Shown: in pieces, positions 6,994-14,912 of the stretch
Layout: each line of letters opens with the position of its first letter
Numbering within the stretch: the first letter of the stretch is position 1
DNA from: a virus
IMG/VR virus record: IMGVR_UViG_3300042516_001581
Span: 1 to 20,149 of that record
Length of the DNA stretch: 20,149 nucleotides
Reading direction: 5' to 3' (one strand)
Translations under genes and position numbers: made by a program
Notes under the pieces: model-generated
Databases searched by the model: none
Told to the model about the DNA's origin: nothing
The model's input: the letters and a program-made list of their open reading frames with translations, nothing else

Positions 6994-7473
6994 ATGGAAG
7001 GCAAGAACCCTAACGAAACTATTCTTATTCCACTTCTCAACAAGCGCGTGAGCGAACTGACCACAACTAATATTTTGATTGAAGCCAAACTGCTGTACGC
7101 AGAAGAAGAAAAGAAGGAACTTCAAGACGCACTTGAAGCAGAAAAGGCGCGGTTCGCTGCTGCGATTGAGGGCGAAAAGGCGCAAATGGCGCAGTCCGTG
7201 CAGGAGCAGACAGGAATCGTCCGTGAAGCCTGTGAACGCGACAAGCAGACGATTGCACAGAACTGGCAGAACGAACTGTCTGTTCAGACAGGAAACCTGA
7301 AAGGTCAGATTGCGGGACTGAGTGATCAACTGGCTGCGGCAAACGCACAGATTTCTGCTCTACAGGCAGAACTCGCTCATATCAAGCCTGTTCCTGCTCC
7401 CGTAGAGGAAAAGCCATCTCCAAAGCGTAGGAACAAAGCAGACGCAGCGATGATGGGTGGTGGAACCTTCTAA
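6994..7473 (+). CDS. Small coiled-coil protein of the fibre cluster
   Basis: This 159-residue protein has a strong AAGGAGAT site six bases before its ATG. Residues of about 10-130 are almost entirely heptad-like and rich in A, E, K, Q and L (EEEKKELQDALEAEKARFAA, QIAGLSDQLAAANAQISALQ), indicating a long alpha-helical coiled coil. A proline-rich hinge (PVPAPVEEKPSP) leads to a basic stretch KRRNK, and the protein ends in GGGTF, echoing the ends of the two upstream fibres. There is no signal peptide or membrane segment. It sits between fibre genes and downstream of a terminator, so it is probably a virion or fibre-assembly component, such as a whisker-like or chaperone protein. That role is inferred; I do not recognise a named family. 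Its stop codon lies in a CTAAATA motif. Confidence 0.8.
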   Translation: MEGKNPNETILIPLLNKRVSELTTTNILIEAKLLYAEEEKKELQDALEAEKARFAAAIEGEKAQMAQSVQEQTGIVREACERDKQTIAQNWQNELSVQTGNLKGQIAGLSDQLAAANAQISALQAELAHIKPVPAPVEEKPSPKRRNKADAAMMGGGTF

Positions 7474-10697: not shown

Positions 10698-12617
10698 ATG
10701 AAGCGATTGCCTACCCTCTATCAGGATTTCATCCACCTTTCCCGCTACAGCCGTTGGATTGAATCCGAGAAACGCCGCGAGTCTTGGGAAGAAACGGTTG
10801 ACCGTTACTTCCGCTTCTTTGATGAGCATTTTGCCGACAAGGGCGTGAAGATAAATAAGGCAGTCCGCGAAGAACTCCGTGAAGCCGTCCTGAATCTTGA
10901 AGTGATGCCGTCCATGCGGTCGCTGATGACCGCAGGGGAAGCACTCAAGCGGGACAACACCGCAGGCTACAACTGCTCCTATGTCGCGGTCAACAAGGTT
11001 CGCGCATTCGATGAGATCCTGTATGTTCTCATGTGCGGAACTGGTGTAGGCTTCAGCGTGGAGAGGCAGTATGTTGAAAAACTTCCTACAATCGCTGAAG
11101 AGTTTACTAACAGCGATACTCTCATTGTGGTCAAGGACTCCAAGGAAGGTTGGGCAAAAGCCTACCGAGAACTGGTATCCCTACTTATTGGAGGTCAAAT
11201 CCCCCGATGGGACTTGTCTCACATTCGTCCTGCTGGTGCGCGCCTCAAGACTTTCGGTGGACGCGCAAGTGGACCGCAGCCACTGGAAGACCTCTTCCGA
11301 TTTACCGTCAGTACTTTTAAGAAGAGTGCTGGTCGCAAACTCACCTCTATTGAATGCCACGACATTATCTGTAAGATTGCAGAGATTGTCGTTGTCGGTG
11401 GAGTGCGTAGATCGGCTCTTATCTCGCTTTCCAACCTCACGGACGAGCGGATGCGTGATGCTAAGGTGGGGCAGTGGTGGTTGGACAACCCGCAGCGGGC
11501 ATTAGCAAACAACTCCGTAGCCTTCAAGGAGAAGCCAGAGATCGGCACATTCATGGAGGAGTGGCTGTCGCTCTACAAGAGCAAGAGCGGTGAGCGCGGC
11601 ATCTTCAACCGTCAAGCCGCACAGAAGACGGTGGAGAAACTTGGTGATCGCCGTGATGCCTCCTACGAGTTCGGCACGAACCCCTGCTCTGAGATCATTC
11701 TCCGCGACAAGGAGTTCTGCAATCTGTCCGAGGTGATTGTTCGCGCAGAGGACACTCCTGATACGCTGAAGCGCAAGGTGCGTCTTGCTGCCATTCTTGG
11801 AACTTGGCAAGCCTCGCTCACCCACTTCCCGTATCTCAGCAGTGATTGGAAGCGCAACTGCGAAGAGGAGTGCCTGCTTGGTGTTTCTCTCACAGGCATT
11901 CTTGACAACCACTTCATGCGGACACAGGGCGACAATCTCAATGTGCTGCTTGAACTGCTCAAGGCTGACGCGGTTGCCACGAACAAGGAGTGGGCGAAGC
12001 GGATCGGCATCAATCCTGCGGCTGCAATCACTTGTGTGAAGCCAAGCGGCACGGTGTCGCAGTTGACTGATGCGGCTAGCGGTATTCACGCTCGTCACAA
12101 CGAGTACTACATCCGCACTGTTCGTGCCGACCGCAAGGATCCTATGTGTCAGTTTATGATTGACAAGGGATTCCCTGCGGAGCCGTGTGTGATGCGTCCT
12201 GACCACACGATGGTGTTCTCGTTCCCGCAGAAGGCTGTGGGATCGGTGACGCGCAACGACATGACTGCGATTGAACACTTGGAGTTGTGGCTCACCTATC
12301 AGCGTCACTGGTGCGAACACAAGCCAAGCATCACGGTCACCGTTCGTGAGCATGAGTGGATGGAGGTTGGTGCGTGGGTGTACGCGCACTTTGACGAGAT
12401 CAGCGGCATCTCGTTCCTGCCCCACTCGGATCACACCTATCAGCAGGCTCCGTATCAGGACTGCACAGCAGAGCAGTATGAAGCCGCTCTTGCGAAACTG
12501 CCGCAGTCTATTGATTGGAGTGAACTCACACAGTACGAGAAGTCTGACACCACGAAGGGAACGCAGACCTTTGCGTGTTCAGGCGACAAGTGCGAAGTGG
12601 TTGACCTGACTACATAA
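10698..12617 (+). CDS. nrdJ: Class II (adenosylcobalamin-dependent) ribonucleotide reductase, monomeric type
   Basis: This 639-residue protein reduces ribonucleotides to deoxyribonucleotides, probably triphosphates as in the monomeric Lactobacillus-type enzyme, using adenosylcobalamin to make the thiyl radical. C93 (YNCSY) and C341 (FCNLSE) fit the reducing cysteine pair, and NPCSEI places the radical cysteine at C330 and the glutamate at E332. CGTGVGFSVE (113-122) and CVKPSGTVSQL (446-456) are further family blocks. The C-terminal C627-x4-C632 fits the swivelling thiol pair that is reduced by thioredoxin. No intein or frameshift is apparent, and the length is somewhat below the roughly 740 of the Lactobacillus enzyme. 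The start has AAGGAG eight bases upstream. The gene stands alone between two hairpin terminators. No cobalamin riboswitch fits in the 52 bases between the upstream terminator and the ATG. Confidence 0.95.
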   Translation: MKRLPTLYQDFIHLSRYSRWIESEKRRESWEETVDRYFRFFDEHFADKGVKINKAVREELREAVLNLEVMPSMRSLMTAGEALKRDNTAGYNCSYVAVNKVRAFDEILYVLMCGTGVGFSVERQYVEKLPTIAEEFTNSDTLIVVKDSKEGWAKAYRELVSLLIGGQIPRWDLSHIRPAGARLKTFGGRASGPQPLEDLFRFTVSTFKKSAGRKLTSIECHDIICKIAEIVVVGGVRRSALISLSNLTDERMRDAKVGQWWLDNPQRALANNSVAFKEKPEIGTFMEEWLSLYKSKSGERGIFNRQAAQKTVEKLGDRRDASYEFGTNPCSEIILRDKEFCNLSEVIVRAEDTPDTLKRKVRLAAILGTWQASLTHFPYLSSDWKRNCEEECLLGVSLTGILDNHFMRTQGDNLNVLLELLKADAVATNKEWAKRIGINPAAAITCVKPSGTVSQLTDAASGIHARHNEYYIRTVRADRKDPMCQFMIDKGFPAEPCVMRPDHTMVFSFPQKAVGSVTRNDMTAIEHLELWLTYQRHWCEHKPSITVTVREHEWMEVGAWVYAHFDEISGISFLPHSDHTYQQAPYQDCTAEQYEAALAKLPQSIDWSELTQYEKSDTTKGTQTFACSGDKCEVVDLTT

Positions 12618-12644: not shown

Positions 12645-12650
12645 CGTCCG

Positions 12651-12680
12651 ACAACCCCCGCAAGGGGGTTGTTTCTTTTT
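12651..12680 (+). terminator. Rho-independent terminator after nrdJ
   Basis: A perfect 9-bp stem ACAACCCCC / GGGGGTTGT with a GCAA tetraloop is followed by TTCTTTTT. This is the most canonical intrinsic terminator in the window. Confidence 0.92.
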
Positions 12681-12713: not shown

Positions 12714-12720
12714 CTAAATA
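12714..12720 (+). promoter_or_regulatory. T4-like late promoter core CTAAATA before the protease gene
   Basis: CTAAATA is followed by five bases (TTTAC) and then the ATG at 12726. There is no Shine-Dalgarno sequence between the terminator and the ATG. By T4 geometry the transcript would begin on the A of ATG. Confidence 0.65.
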
Positions 12721-12725
12721 TTTAC

Positions 12726-13487
12726 ATGAAGAGAGGAGCGGTACATTCTCTTCTGCTGGCTCTTGCACTCGTCTTGCTGCAAGCCTGTGCGACAGATATC
12801 ACTGCCAACGCGCCGAAGAGCGCACCCCCGCCGAAGTGCGGGGAGATTGAACCAATACGAGAAGCCCCCGTGGAGATGCCGTTCTTCATGCGGGGCTTCT
12901 CGCTATTGGACGGGTACACGGATCCTGCGGTCGGATATTTGCAACGAGAAGACGGGGAGATGATCGGCAGCGCAATACTGATTTCTCCCACCGCCATACT
13001 CACCGCAGGGCATTGCATGGACGGCACGGGAGCAGCGTGGTTCGTGACGCAGGAATCGTGTTATCGAATCAAAAAATCCATCCTGCATCCATATTACAAA
13101 ACAGGAGACACCATCTTGGTGGACTTGGCGGTGGCGGTCTTGGAAACGCCCTGCGCTGCCCCGCCGCTGCCTCTGGTGAAGTCGGGATACGAGTACCACC
13201 GTCAGCAGCCTCTCACGGTGATCGGCTACGGAGGAGGGTTTAAACGGCGTTCTAATCCTGATCTGTTCCATTATTTTGGAACCATCGTGGAGGAACCCGC
13301 AGTATTCAAATTTCTCCCATTGGACGGCACGGTGTGGTTCGGTGACTCTGGCGGTGCGGTGCTTGACGAGAGCGGAACCGTGATCGGCGTGGTTTCATCT
13401 CTTGGAATATTCAACGGACACCTGTACGAAAACTCTGCGACTCGTCTTGAATCGTTTACCAAATGGATACAGGAGGCAAGCCAATGA
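12726..13487 (+). CDS. Trypsin-like serine protease, predicted lipoprotein
   Basis: I chose the ATG at 12726, giving 253 residues, because it opens directly on a signal sequence; the frame extends up to 12669, but that part runs through the nrdJ terminator. Residues 1-21 are a lipoprotein signal: basic KR, a hydrophobic core (LLLALALVLL) and the lipobox LQAC with C21. The chymotrypsin-fold catalytic triad is visible as TAGHC (H96), DLAV (D133) and GDSGG (S208), with GSAILISPTAILTAGHC before the histidine and VIGYGGG between. C97 and C112 could form the disulphide near the histidine. Substrate specificity is unknown. The protein should be anchored on the periplasmic or outer face of a membrane of the infected cell. 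It is coupled by ATGA to a 30-residue membrane peptide. A lipoprotein protease in a lytic phage is unusual. Confidence 0.88.
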   Translation: MKRGAVHSLLLALALVLLQACATDITANAPKSAPPPKCGEIEPIREAPVEMPFFMRGFSLLDGYTDPAVGYLQREDGEMIGSAILISPTAILTAGHCMDGTGAAWFVTQESCYRIKKSILHPYYKTGDTILVDLAVAVLETPCAAPPLPLVKSGYEYHRQQPLTVIGYGGGFKRRSNPDLFHYFGTIVEEPAVFKFLPLDGTVWFGDSGGAVLDESGTVIGVVSSLGIFNGHLYENSATRLESFTKWIQEASQ

Positions 13488-13576
13488 AACACGAACTAAA
13501 CCAAACTCAACGAGTTCTGCTTGGCGCAATCTCTTTCTGTGTTGGAGTATTGCTTGCGAGGGCTGTGGGGCTGTGA
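13484..13576 (+). CDS. Small membrane peptide of 30 residues, coupled to the protease
   Basis: This short gene is easily missed. Its ATG overlaps the protease stop as ATGA, and a perfect AGGAGG lies eight bases before it (13470-13475). The product begins MKHELNQTQRVLLGA and continues as a single hydrophobic helix (VLLGAISFCVGVLLARAV), so it is a short polar N-terminus plus one predicted transmembrane segment with an arginine near its end. It stops at TGA, one base before the next CTAAATA motif. I recognise no family. Its position suggests a partner or regulator of the lipoprotein protease, or a small lysis or membrane peptide; both are inference. Confidence 0.7.
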   Translation: MKHELNQTQRVLLGAISFCVGVLLARAVGL

Positions 13577-13577
13577 C

Positions 13578-13584
13578 CTAAATA
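13578..13584 (+). promoter_or_regulatory. T4-like late promoter core CTAAATA before the RuvC-like gene
   Basis: CTAAATA lies one base after the stop of the 30-residue peptide and is followed by five bases (TGATC) and the ATG at 13590. No spaced Shine-Dalgarno is present. This is the third copy with exactly five bases to an ATG. Confidence 0.62.
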
Positions 13585-13589
13585 TGATC

Positions 13590-14168
13590 ATGGTGATAGC
13601 AGGTATTGATTATTCTCTCTGTGGTCCAGCCGTGTGCCTGTTCCGCGCAAACTCTACGGGCAAGTTCTCGTACAGCGGTTGTTCGTTTTATTTTCTGACG
13701 GACAACAAGCGGCAGAGCGAGATTCGCACGCTAAACATATTCGGTGAGCGGTTGAGCGATTGGGACAATGATCAGCACCGCTACGAAACGATTGCGGATT
13801 GGGCAATGGACATCGTGATGGGCTGCACCCATGTGGCACTTGAGGGATACGCCTACTCTGCCAGCGGCAAGGTGTTTCATATCGCAGAGAACACAGGCAT
13901 CCTGAAGTACAAACTGTATCAGTTGAGCATTCCCGTCACGATCATTCCGCCCACTGAGGTGAAGAAGTACGCCACAGGCAAGGGCAACGCAGACAAGAAC
14001 GCCATGTACGATTCGTGGCTGAAGGAAACAGGAGTGGACCTGAAAGGACTCTTGACACCGAAGCGTCAAGAGTCCGTGAGTCCTGTTTCAGATATTGTTG
14101 ACTCGTACTACATCTGCAAGAAGATGTATGAATCACTGCCCGAAGATGTCCGCGTGGCGGACGATTAA
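13590..14168 (+). CDS. RuvC-like Holliday junction resolvase / RNase H-fold nuclease
   Basis: Starting at the ATG at 13590 gives 192 residues beginning MVIAGIDYS; the in-frame ATG at 13584 would add two residues, and 13521 would overlap the small peptide gene. RuvC-type features are the first acidic motif GIDYS (D7), VALEGYAYSASG (E85), the helix block FHIAENTGILKYKL, PPTEVKKYATGKGNADKNAM (120-139) and the closing pair SDIVDSYYIC (D168, D171). The family cuts branched DNA, resolving recombination junctions before packaging. T4 itself uses endonuclease VII (gp49) for this, so the RuvC type would replace it, if no gp49 exists elsewhere. Its stop overlaps the stop of the convergent lipoprotein gene within TTAA. 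Confidence 0.82.
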   Translation: MVIAGIDYSLCGPAVCLFRANSTGKFSYSGCSFYFLTDNKRQSEIRTLNIFGERLSDWDNDQHRYETIADWAMDIVMGCTHVALEGYAYSASGKVFHIAENTGILKYKLYQLSIPVTIIPPTEVKKYATGKGNADKNAMYDSWLKETGVDLKGLLTPKRQESVSPVSDIVDSYYICKKMYESLPEDVRVADD

Positions 14169-14464
14169 GGAACCGTTGTGGTGTTGTCCTGCGGGGCGGG
14201 CTGCGTCTTCTCTTCAGCCTTTTCCTCTTCGCAGTCTTCCCGCTTCTTGATGAATTCCTTCCACGCCCAAGCCACAACCAAGAACAGTACAGGCAGATAC
14301 CAAAGAATCCATCCCCAGTTCTGACTGATCTGATCGCCATTGAGGATTTCGTGCTTCAGTTTCATCATAATGACGCTATCCGAAGTGTTGTCAGGAATCA
14401 CTTCAGGACTAGTGCCGCAGGCAGCGAGAAACGAGGTGGCTAGCAGTAGCAGTGTTTTCTTCAT
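14165..14464 (-). CDS. Small lipoprotein with one transmembrane segment, possible u-spanin
   Basis: I chose the ATG at 14464, giving 99 residues, because it opens a clear lipoprotein signal (MKKTLLLLATSFLAACG, lipobox LAAC with C16) and has AAAGGAGC just upstream; the longer frame to 14500 runs into the previous gene. After C16 there is a polar stretch of about 34 residues, then a predicted transmembrane helix (WGWILWYLPVLFLVVAWAW, about 50-68) and a charged tail (KKREDCEEEKAEEK). A lipid anchor plus a transmembrane helix is the topology of unimolecular spanins such as T1 gp11, which link the outer and inner membranes at lysis. The periplasmic part looks short for that role and the cytoplasmic tail is long, so this remains tentative. 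It lies 10 bases downstream of the holin-like gene. Confidence 0.75.
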   Translation of the reverse strand: MKKTLLLLATSFLAACGTSPEVIPDNTSDSVIMMKLKHEILNGDQISQNWGWILWYLPVLFLVVAWAWKEFIKKREDCEEEKAEEKTQPAPQDNTTTVP

Positions 14465-14474
14465 GGCTGCTCCT

Positions 14475-14912
14475 TTACGACTTGTTTGCAGCAGCGGCAC
14501 TACCGAAGTAGAAGCCCACGATGCTTACGAGAATCTGACGGGTTTCGGATGTGAACAGGAATCCGTTCACCTCCACGAAATACTTCTTCGTCGTCTCGGG
14601 AATCAGACCGAACAAGCCTTCGGGATTCTTTGCGTCAACCTCAACAAAGGTGGGTAGACCAAAGAACGGCAGGATGAAAGGAGCCAGCAGGGTGGCGAAC
14701 AGCACGGACAGCACGATGATCTGCCGAATGCCTTTGCCTACATCAAGCGGGACGCGCTCCGCTGCCTTGTCTTGATTCTCGGTGGTCTGCTTGTTCTGCG
14801 CCATCAGGCGTTCGAACATTTCCTTTTGGTCTTGACGCTTCTCTGCCATGAAGCGAAACAGGAATCCAGTCGCAGAGCCTCCAACCAACGAAATGAGTTC
14901 AGGACTAATCAT
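14475..14912 (-). CDS. Holin-like protein with three membrane segments
   Basis: This 145-residue protein starts at 14912 with AAAGGAAG about seven bases upstream. The N-terminus (ISLVGGSATGFLFRFM, about 7-22) is a weak first membrane segment. A polar, charged helix follows (AEKRQDQKEMFERLMAQNKQ), then a strong segment (IIVLSVLFATLLAPFILPFF, about 65-84). A loop of about 40 residues leads to a last segment (ILVSIVGFYFGSAAA, about 127-141) ending in NKS. The FYFGS ending and three-segment layout resemble the GTA_holin_3TM-type family. A holin would time inner-membrane permeabilisation at lysis. No endolysin is visible in the window, so the lysis role rests on topology and on the lipoprotein encoded next to it. 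Confidence 0.7.
   Translation of the reverse strand: MISPELISLVGGSATGFLFRFMAEKRQDQKEMFERLMAQNKQTTENQDKAAERVPLDVGKGIRQIIVLSVLFATLLAPFILPFFGLPTFVEVDAKNPEGLFGLIPETTKKYFVEVNGFLFTSETRQILVSIVGFYFGSAAAANKS

Follow-up and report, generated by a model that had tools for sequence, protein, structure and literature searches.

Why would a phage encode a trypsin-like serine protease that carries a lipoprotein signal? The DNA analysed here (hereafter the window) is a 20-kb IMG/VR record, 20,149 nt of IMGVR_UViG_3300042516_001581, and an earlier note on it had predicted an active, membrane-anchored protease encoded by the phage and preceded by a late-type motif. In answer, we describe a protease whose anatomy is firm and for which we infer a target in the host envelope and a role at the end of infection. 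Beyond what the note had described, the locus presents an exact promoter-ATG spacing, a coupled micro-gene and an exchange of the cassette between phages with near-identical flanks. Its features are as follows.

10698..12617, plus strand: adenosylcobalamin-dependent ribonucleotide reductase (nrdJ type), the conserved left flank of the cassette
12650..12673, plus strand: intrinsic-terminator-like hairpin after nrdJ (10 pairs, then TCTTTTTGCA), separating nrdJ from the protease unit
12714..12720, plus strand: T4-type late-promoter motif CTAAATA, 5 nt before the protease ATG
12726..13487, plus strand: lipoprotein S1-type serine protease, 253 aa (from ORF, Pfam, alignment and model)
12900..13575, plus strand: exchanged cassette (catalytic domain and micro-gene), about 50-57% DNA identity to L018, L043 and L046, with flanks at about 93-95%
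13484..13576, plus strand: micro-gene MKHELNQTQRVLLGAISFCVGVLLARAVGL, 30 aa, one hydrophobic segment, overlapping the protease stop (ATGA), with AGGAGG upstream
13578..13584, plus strand: second late-promoter motif CTAAATA, 5 nt before the ruvC ATG (13590)
13590..14168, plus strand: RuvC-like Holliday junction resolvase, the conserved right flank of the cassette
14165-14464, minus strand: 99-aa protein with a lipobox (LAAC) and a transmembrane segment, one of a conserved pair beyond ruvC
14475-14912, minus strand: 145-aa membrane protein (PHROG 38283, unknown function), the other member of that pair

Anatomy and phage setting of the protease

The protein consists of a signal peptide (residues 1-20), a lipobox cysteine (C21), a linker (about 22-55) and a catalytic domain (about 56-253). 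Its N-terminus, MKRGAVHSLLLALALVLLQAC, is followed by a Pro-rich linker and then by the S1-type domain. As assessed by sequence pattern, the lipoprotein signal comprises a charged MKR start, a hydrophobic stretch and the lipobox LLQAC. H96, D133 and S208 form a complete catalytic triad at the positions given in the earlier note, S208 lying within GDSGG and the His-Asp-Ser order being that of the S1 / PA-clan. Both Trypsin (E=1.7e-13) and Trypsin_2 (E=2.7e-13) of Pfam match above their curated cut-offs. An AlphaFold2 model made from a 29-sequence alignment, with pLDDT mostly about 90 in the catalytic part, predicts a chymotrypsin-like double barrel. Its Foldseek matches in the PDB are S1 proteases (probability 1.00, E about 1e-10), with granzyme M, matriptase, trypsins and other S1 enzymes as the best, and a profile search of PDB sequences with the protease returned trypsins, granzymes and DegP/DegS. 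Structure prediction, proposed in the earlier note as a check, therefore agrees with its reading of the fold. The name "trypsin-like" needs to be narrowed: when residues are counted backwards from S208, the position of trypsin Asp189 is taken by an invariant Thr (T202), so that cleavage after Lys/Arg cannot be assumed. The term should apply to the predicted fold only and not to specificity.

The note had also held that homologues lacking triad residues or the lipobox would count against it. Across 81 copies (55 distinct proteins), neither the triad nor the N-terminal cysteine is missing in any, and every full-length homologue has a cysteine where its signal peptide ends. The lipoboxes themselves vary (LQAC, FGAC and LAAC among them), and the residue after the cysteine may be Ala, Val, Asp, Ile, Lys or others; because this last residue varies, a single membrane location is not indicated. 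Within the catalytic domain, T202, F205, E235 and N236 of the pocket region are invariant, and the N-terminal half varies.

Is such a protein new among phages? In the earlier note, phage proteases were described as usually cytoplasmic prohead enzymes. This has to be corrected, as secreted trypsin-like proteases already exist in cultured phages: lipobox-like signals are found on the trypsin-like proteases of the Vibrio phages VPMCC14 and 1.121.O (PHROG 9683), and signal-peptide-like N-termini on trypsins of the Rhizobium phages 16-3 and RHph_TM3_3_14B. Secreted trypsins thus have precedents among phages. The vibriophage proteins (UUW39711.1 and AUR89074.1) share with ours the trypsin fold and lipobox-like N-termini (LGGC, LLGC), and the PHROG 9683 profile matches the window protein at 8.2e-6 and the family at best at 6.9e-12 (L066), over 140-200 positions; its matches to the vibriophage proteins are far stronger (2.5e-45 and 6e-35). 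They differ in sequence, being only 26-28% identical to L066 in tblastn (E 0.04-0.09) and giving no match to the window protein, and in neighbourhood; no overlapping micro-gene of the window family was seen behind their genes. The PHROG 9683 proteases of cultured vibriophages are distant uncharacterised relatives. In VPMCC14 (L077 3947-4910) the lipobox trypsin is directly followed by a second lipobox-bearing protein (MKILKLTALLLLLQGCSTHPSN), and the two are a candidate envelope pair. Among periplasmic proteases, DegP/DegQ/HtrA also have a chymotrypsin-fold domain and appear among the profile matches to solved structures, but the window protein has a lipoprotein anchor and no PDZ domain (only Trypsin models match, and 253 aa leave no room). 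Similarity to the MarP family (NF033740) extends weakly across the protease domain, with a score of 22.7 against a cut-off of 250, and the multi-pass membrane part of that family is absent from the window protein. In the open-access literature searched, we found no account of a phage lipoprotein trypsin or of the combined architecture, and no function for a membrane-anchored chymotrypsin-fold phage protease; PHROG 9683 is annotated only "protease".

The phage origin of the gene, claimed in the earlier note, is borne out by its surroundings. The window encodes a primase, ThyX, collagen-type and other fibres, an adenosylcobalamin-dependent ribonucleotide reductase (RNR), RuvC and a 1668-aa protein, with fibre genes upstream of the protease and the 1668-aa protein downstream. 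A 149,886-base relative (G001) carries the same protease locus, with a protease 89% identical, and also encodes gp23, a gp55-type late sigma factor and a gp45 clamp, all three seen in G001 and not in the 20-kb window. The nearest proteins to its gp23 are those of Synechococcus myoviruses (58%), and the lineage is an uncultured T4-like phage. A bacterial origin of the segment, which the note had named as a refutation, is rejected on the grounds of the fibre, RuvC and RNR genes, of gp23 in the relative and of finding no prokaryote relative with two sets of short patterns, which reach only proteins that share them. A cyanobacterial host is without support, a psbA-family gene being absent from the five large relatives.

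Two further observations concern the relatives of the window. PEP-CTERM-like C-terminal tails (VPAPGAISLLAIGGLIGTTRRRR and others) occur on phage proteins, one at 87606-88238 of G001 (in L071), a second in L071 and one in G008 (L138); TIGR02595 scores 16.1 bits against a cut-off of 16, and Pfam stays below its own cut-off. These tails possibly hint at an exosortase system in the host. G001 also contains, at 107273-119999, a run of genes whose products have similar N-termini (MKPFRQYITERL, MKSFTQHLREAV, MKRFVQHMDEKW, MIDFRSYLTELF), reminiscent of the sequences that target T4 internal head proteins to the capsid.

Bacteria commonly encode S1-type proteases, and the gene might be accidental cargo or a decaying bacterial gene with no role for the phage. 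We consider this extremely improbable. By pattern and tblastn searches, relatives are encoded in at least 105 viral contigs, and in most contigs that are long enough the gene lies between nrdJ and ruvC, down to about 40% protein identity; each of the five large contigs has one copy. The triad is invariant, the late motif is present, and dN/dS is well below 1 (dN 0.083 and dS 0.399 for the catalytic domain against L005), which indicates that change in this domain is constrained. No relatives appeared in 84,980 prokaryote genomes scanned with two sets of short conserved peptide patterns, a scan limited to such patterns, by which close bacterial relatives were not found and distant ones may be missed. 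By tblastn, the window protein had no match in 50,697 phage records.

A late-promoter motif at the start codon

The late-type motif reported in the earlier note is CTAAATA at 12714-12720. The window contains 6 copies of CTAAATA where 0.47 would be expected from shuffling. The distance to the protease start is largely constant: of 82 contigs, 73 have TA[AG]ATA at exactly 5 nt from the ATG and 7 at 6-9 nt, and 2 lack it. These contigs are related and not independent, and the 5-nt arrangement persists at about 40-45% protein identity. In phage Aeh1 the CTAAATA motif starts at -12, and in T4 TATAAATA covers -13 to -6 (PMC1524935). From these positions and the 5-nt spacing, the predicted +1 is the A of the protease ATG. 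No Shine-Dalgarno sequence precedes this ATG. The same spacing is found in the window at a collagen fibre (motif to ATG, 2107-2119) and at ruvC (13578-13590); in two large relatives it occurs at 3 of 27 and 3 of 29 CTAAATA sites, against about 0.16 expected, and in a third at 0 of 22. An ATG at the predicted +1 suggests that these genes would give leaderless late mRNAs. Compared with the T4-type late promoters of T4, Aeh1 and S-PM2, the locus has the same equipment, that is, a box of the TATAAATA/CTAAATA kind, in the form known from Aeh1, together with gp55 and gp45 genes in the lineage (in G001). The difference is that here the ATG falls exactly at the predicted +1, with no 5′ leader.

Spacings of 4, 6, 7 or 8 nt between CTAAATA and an ATG were absent from the window, G001 and G007. 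The 5-nt arrangement marks a discrete class of genes that includes the protease, RuvC, the collagen-type fibre and some other genes. The hairpin after nrdJ has a similar counterpart at the same place in aligned relatives.

The timing that such a motif predicts bears on one possible role, superinfection exclusion or protection, in which the anchored protease would act in the periplasm during infection and cut receptors or the proteins of arriving phages. Exclusion is usually set up early, and late expression would be awkward for it; a consensus scan recognised no early promoter close upstream of the protease. The lipoprotein anchor, the predicted periplasm-facing topology and the diversification of the protein fit this role, which also has a precedent in the lipoproteins Llp and Cor (PMC9586334). 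Like the window protein, these are phage lipoproteins encoded near host-recognition genes and expected to face the periplasm; Llp of T5 is a periplasmic lipoprotein encoded beside the receptor-binding protein gene, and it disables FhuA by binding (PMC9586334). However, known exclusion lipoproteins are small binders and not enzymes, whereas the window protein has 253 aa, a full protease domain with its triad, and a late-type motif. On balance we regard exclusion as quite unlikely.

The micro-gene and the exchanged cassette

Behind the protease, and overlapping its stop codon, lies an ORF of 26-30 aa with the pattern xQ[RK]VLLxAxSFxxGxLLARxxG[LF]. It is present at 68 of 82 loci (36 distinct sequences), and its pN/pS of 0.39, with a pS of 0.78 over 20 diverse copies, indicates a real gene under purifying selection. 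At two loci, L065 and L066, the same place is taken by short membrane ORFs of unlike sequence, and a few members (L038, L118, L123-L126) have none. No match to the peptide was obtained by tblastn against cultured phages.

For four of these peptides the best match is phrog_198, "holin", at weak E values (0.0023 to 0.15), and we take it as a lead only. It bears on the main rival of a role in envelope cleavage, namely that the protease is a lysis factor that breaks outer-membrane or wall-linked proteins, the micro-gene peptide acting like a holin at the inner membrane. The late motif would suit this reading, as would the membrane-protein and lipoprotein genes just past ruvC, which lie on the opposite strand under their own CTAAATA (14951-14945) and are possible lysis genes. 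Yet the holin match covers one hydrophobic segment of a kind common to many peptides, neither an endolysin nor a spanin was identified adjoining the protease, and for a general lysis enzyme there is no particular reason to expect a conserved pocket together with exchange of the cassette. We judge help in lysis a possible but doubtful explanation.

The catalytic half of the protease and the micro-gene are exchanged between phages. In comparisons with L018, L043 and L046, identity in nrdJ and ruvC is 98-99% for the proteins and about 93-95% for the DNA, with dS of about 0.26-0.33, whereas in the catalytic domain it is down to 52%, with dS >2 or saturated. The edges are sharp: DNA identity drops to about 0.5 near 12900 and is back to 0.95 at 13576. 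Against L005 another change of identity is seen near 13200. These profiles are most simply read as homologous replacement, one junction lying near the leader and the other ahead of ruvC. In other pairs (with L054, L055 and L059) the DNA of the signal peptide is better conserved, with dS of 0.2-0.3 over only about 30 codons, and the flanks are more diverged.

Within the signal-peptide coding sequence (12726-12815 and its relatives), about 30 nt (TTTGCACTCGTCTTGCTGCAAGCCTGTGC) are nearly invariant in 19 diverse copies, synonymous sites included, and the flanking genes of phages that share this stretch are much more diverged. RNA folds of the leader from four representatives gave small hairpins and no clear common structure. 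The leader does not appear to be a reusable export cassette: the leader peptide, sought in a set of the protease loci, and the promoter-leader DNA, sought in viral contigs, occur only on protease genes, save for a few chance DNA matches. Between protease and ruvC, L008 (8774-9048), L012 (8523-8669) and L054 (3400-3540) carry on the opposite strand a gene for a small coiled-coil protein; this insert is related to 6994-7473 of the window, which has no insert at that place.

Comparison of alleles also bears on whether the protease processes fibres or other proteins of the virion. The fibre genes upstream and the 1668-aa protein downstream might suggest such a task, but the signal peptide and lipobox would place the protease outside the cytoplasm, the site of fibre assembly. 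Moreover, the L018 protease is 58% identical to that of the window while the on-contig part of the 1668-aa protein is 95% identical. Processing of this adjacent protein can be rejected, as protease allele types do not track it where the two are comparable, and processing of virion proteins in general seems to us very unlikely.

A possible role at the end of infection

What would the phage gain from such a protease? Tentatively, we favour a late, envelope-anchored enzyme that, as infection ends, cuts proteins of the host envelope, a proposal built on sequence features. Late RNA polymerase of the gp55/gp45 type would act at CTAAATA and start at the ATG, giving a leaderless mRNA. The signal peptide would export the protease, and signal peptidase II would leave it tethered through C21 to a periplasm-facing membrane, where the linker of about 30 residues may free the catalytic domain. 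From the micro-gene would come a membrane peptide with one helix, which probably serves as a partner, anchor or regulator. In the final stage of infection the protease might then cut envelope proteins, most likely a receptor or another outer-envelope protein, so that progeny would not stick to the remains of their host and other phages would be excluded. In this respect it would parallel T5 Llp, which disables its receptor by binding; here cleavage would do so. The invariant pocket residues amid a varying domain, the fibre genes upstream and the late machinery are consistent with this role. Variable host targets or inhibitors would drive the exchange of the cassette, the promoter, leader and flanking genes being kept, although rapid exchange is compatible with any role directed at the host or at rival phages. 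A more specific proposal, which we consider unlikely, is that of a receptor-destroying system, in which a leaderless, late, anchored S1 protease would work with a dedicated microprotein and homologous exchange of the cassette, within a conserved leader and conserved flanks, would shift its targets with variation of the host surface.

The family is widespread, its locus is fixed, and it combines a late-promoter signature with a coupled microprotein and exchange of alleles, which makes the role and the partner of the protease directly testable. In addition, with the ATG at the predicted +1 here and at other genes of the same genomes, it becomes possible to test whether T4-like phages translate late mRNAs that lack a leader.
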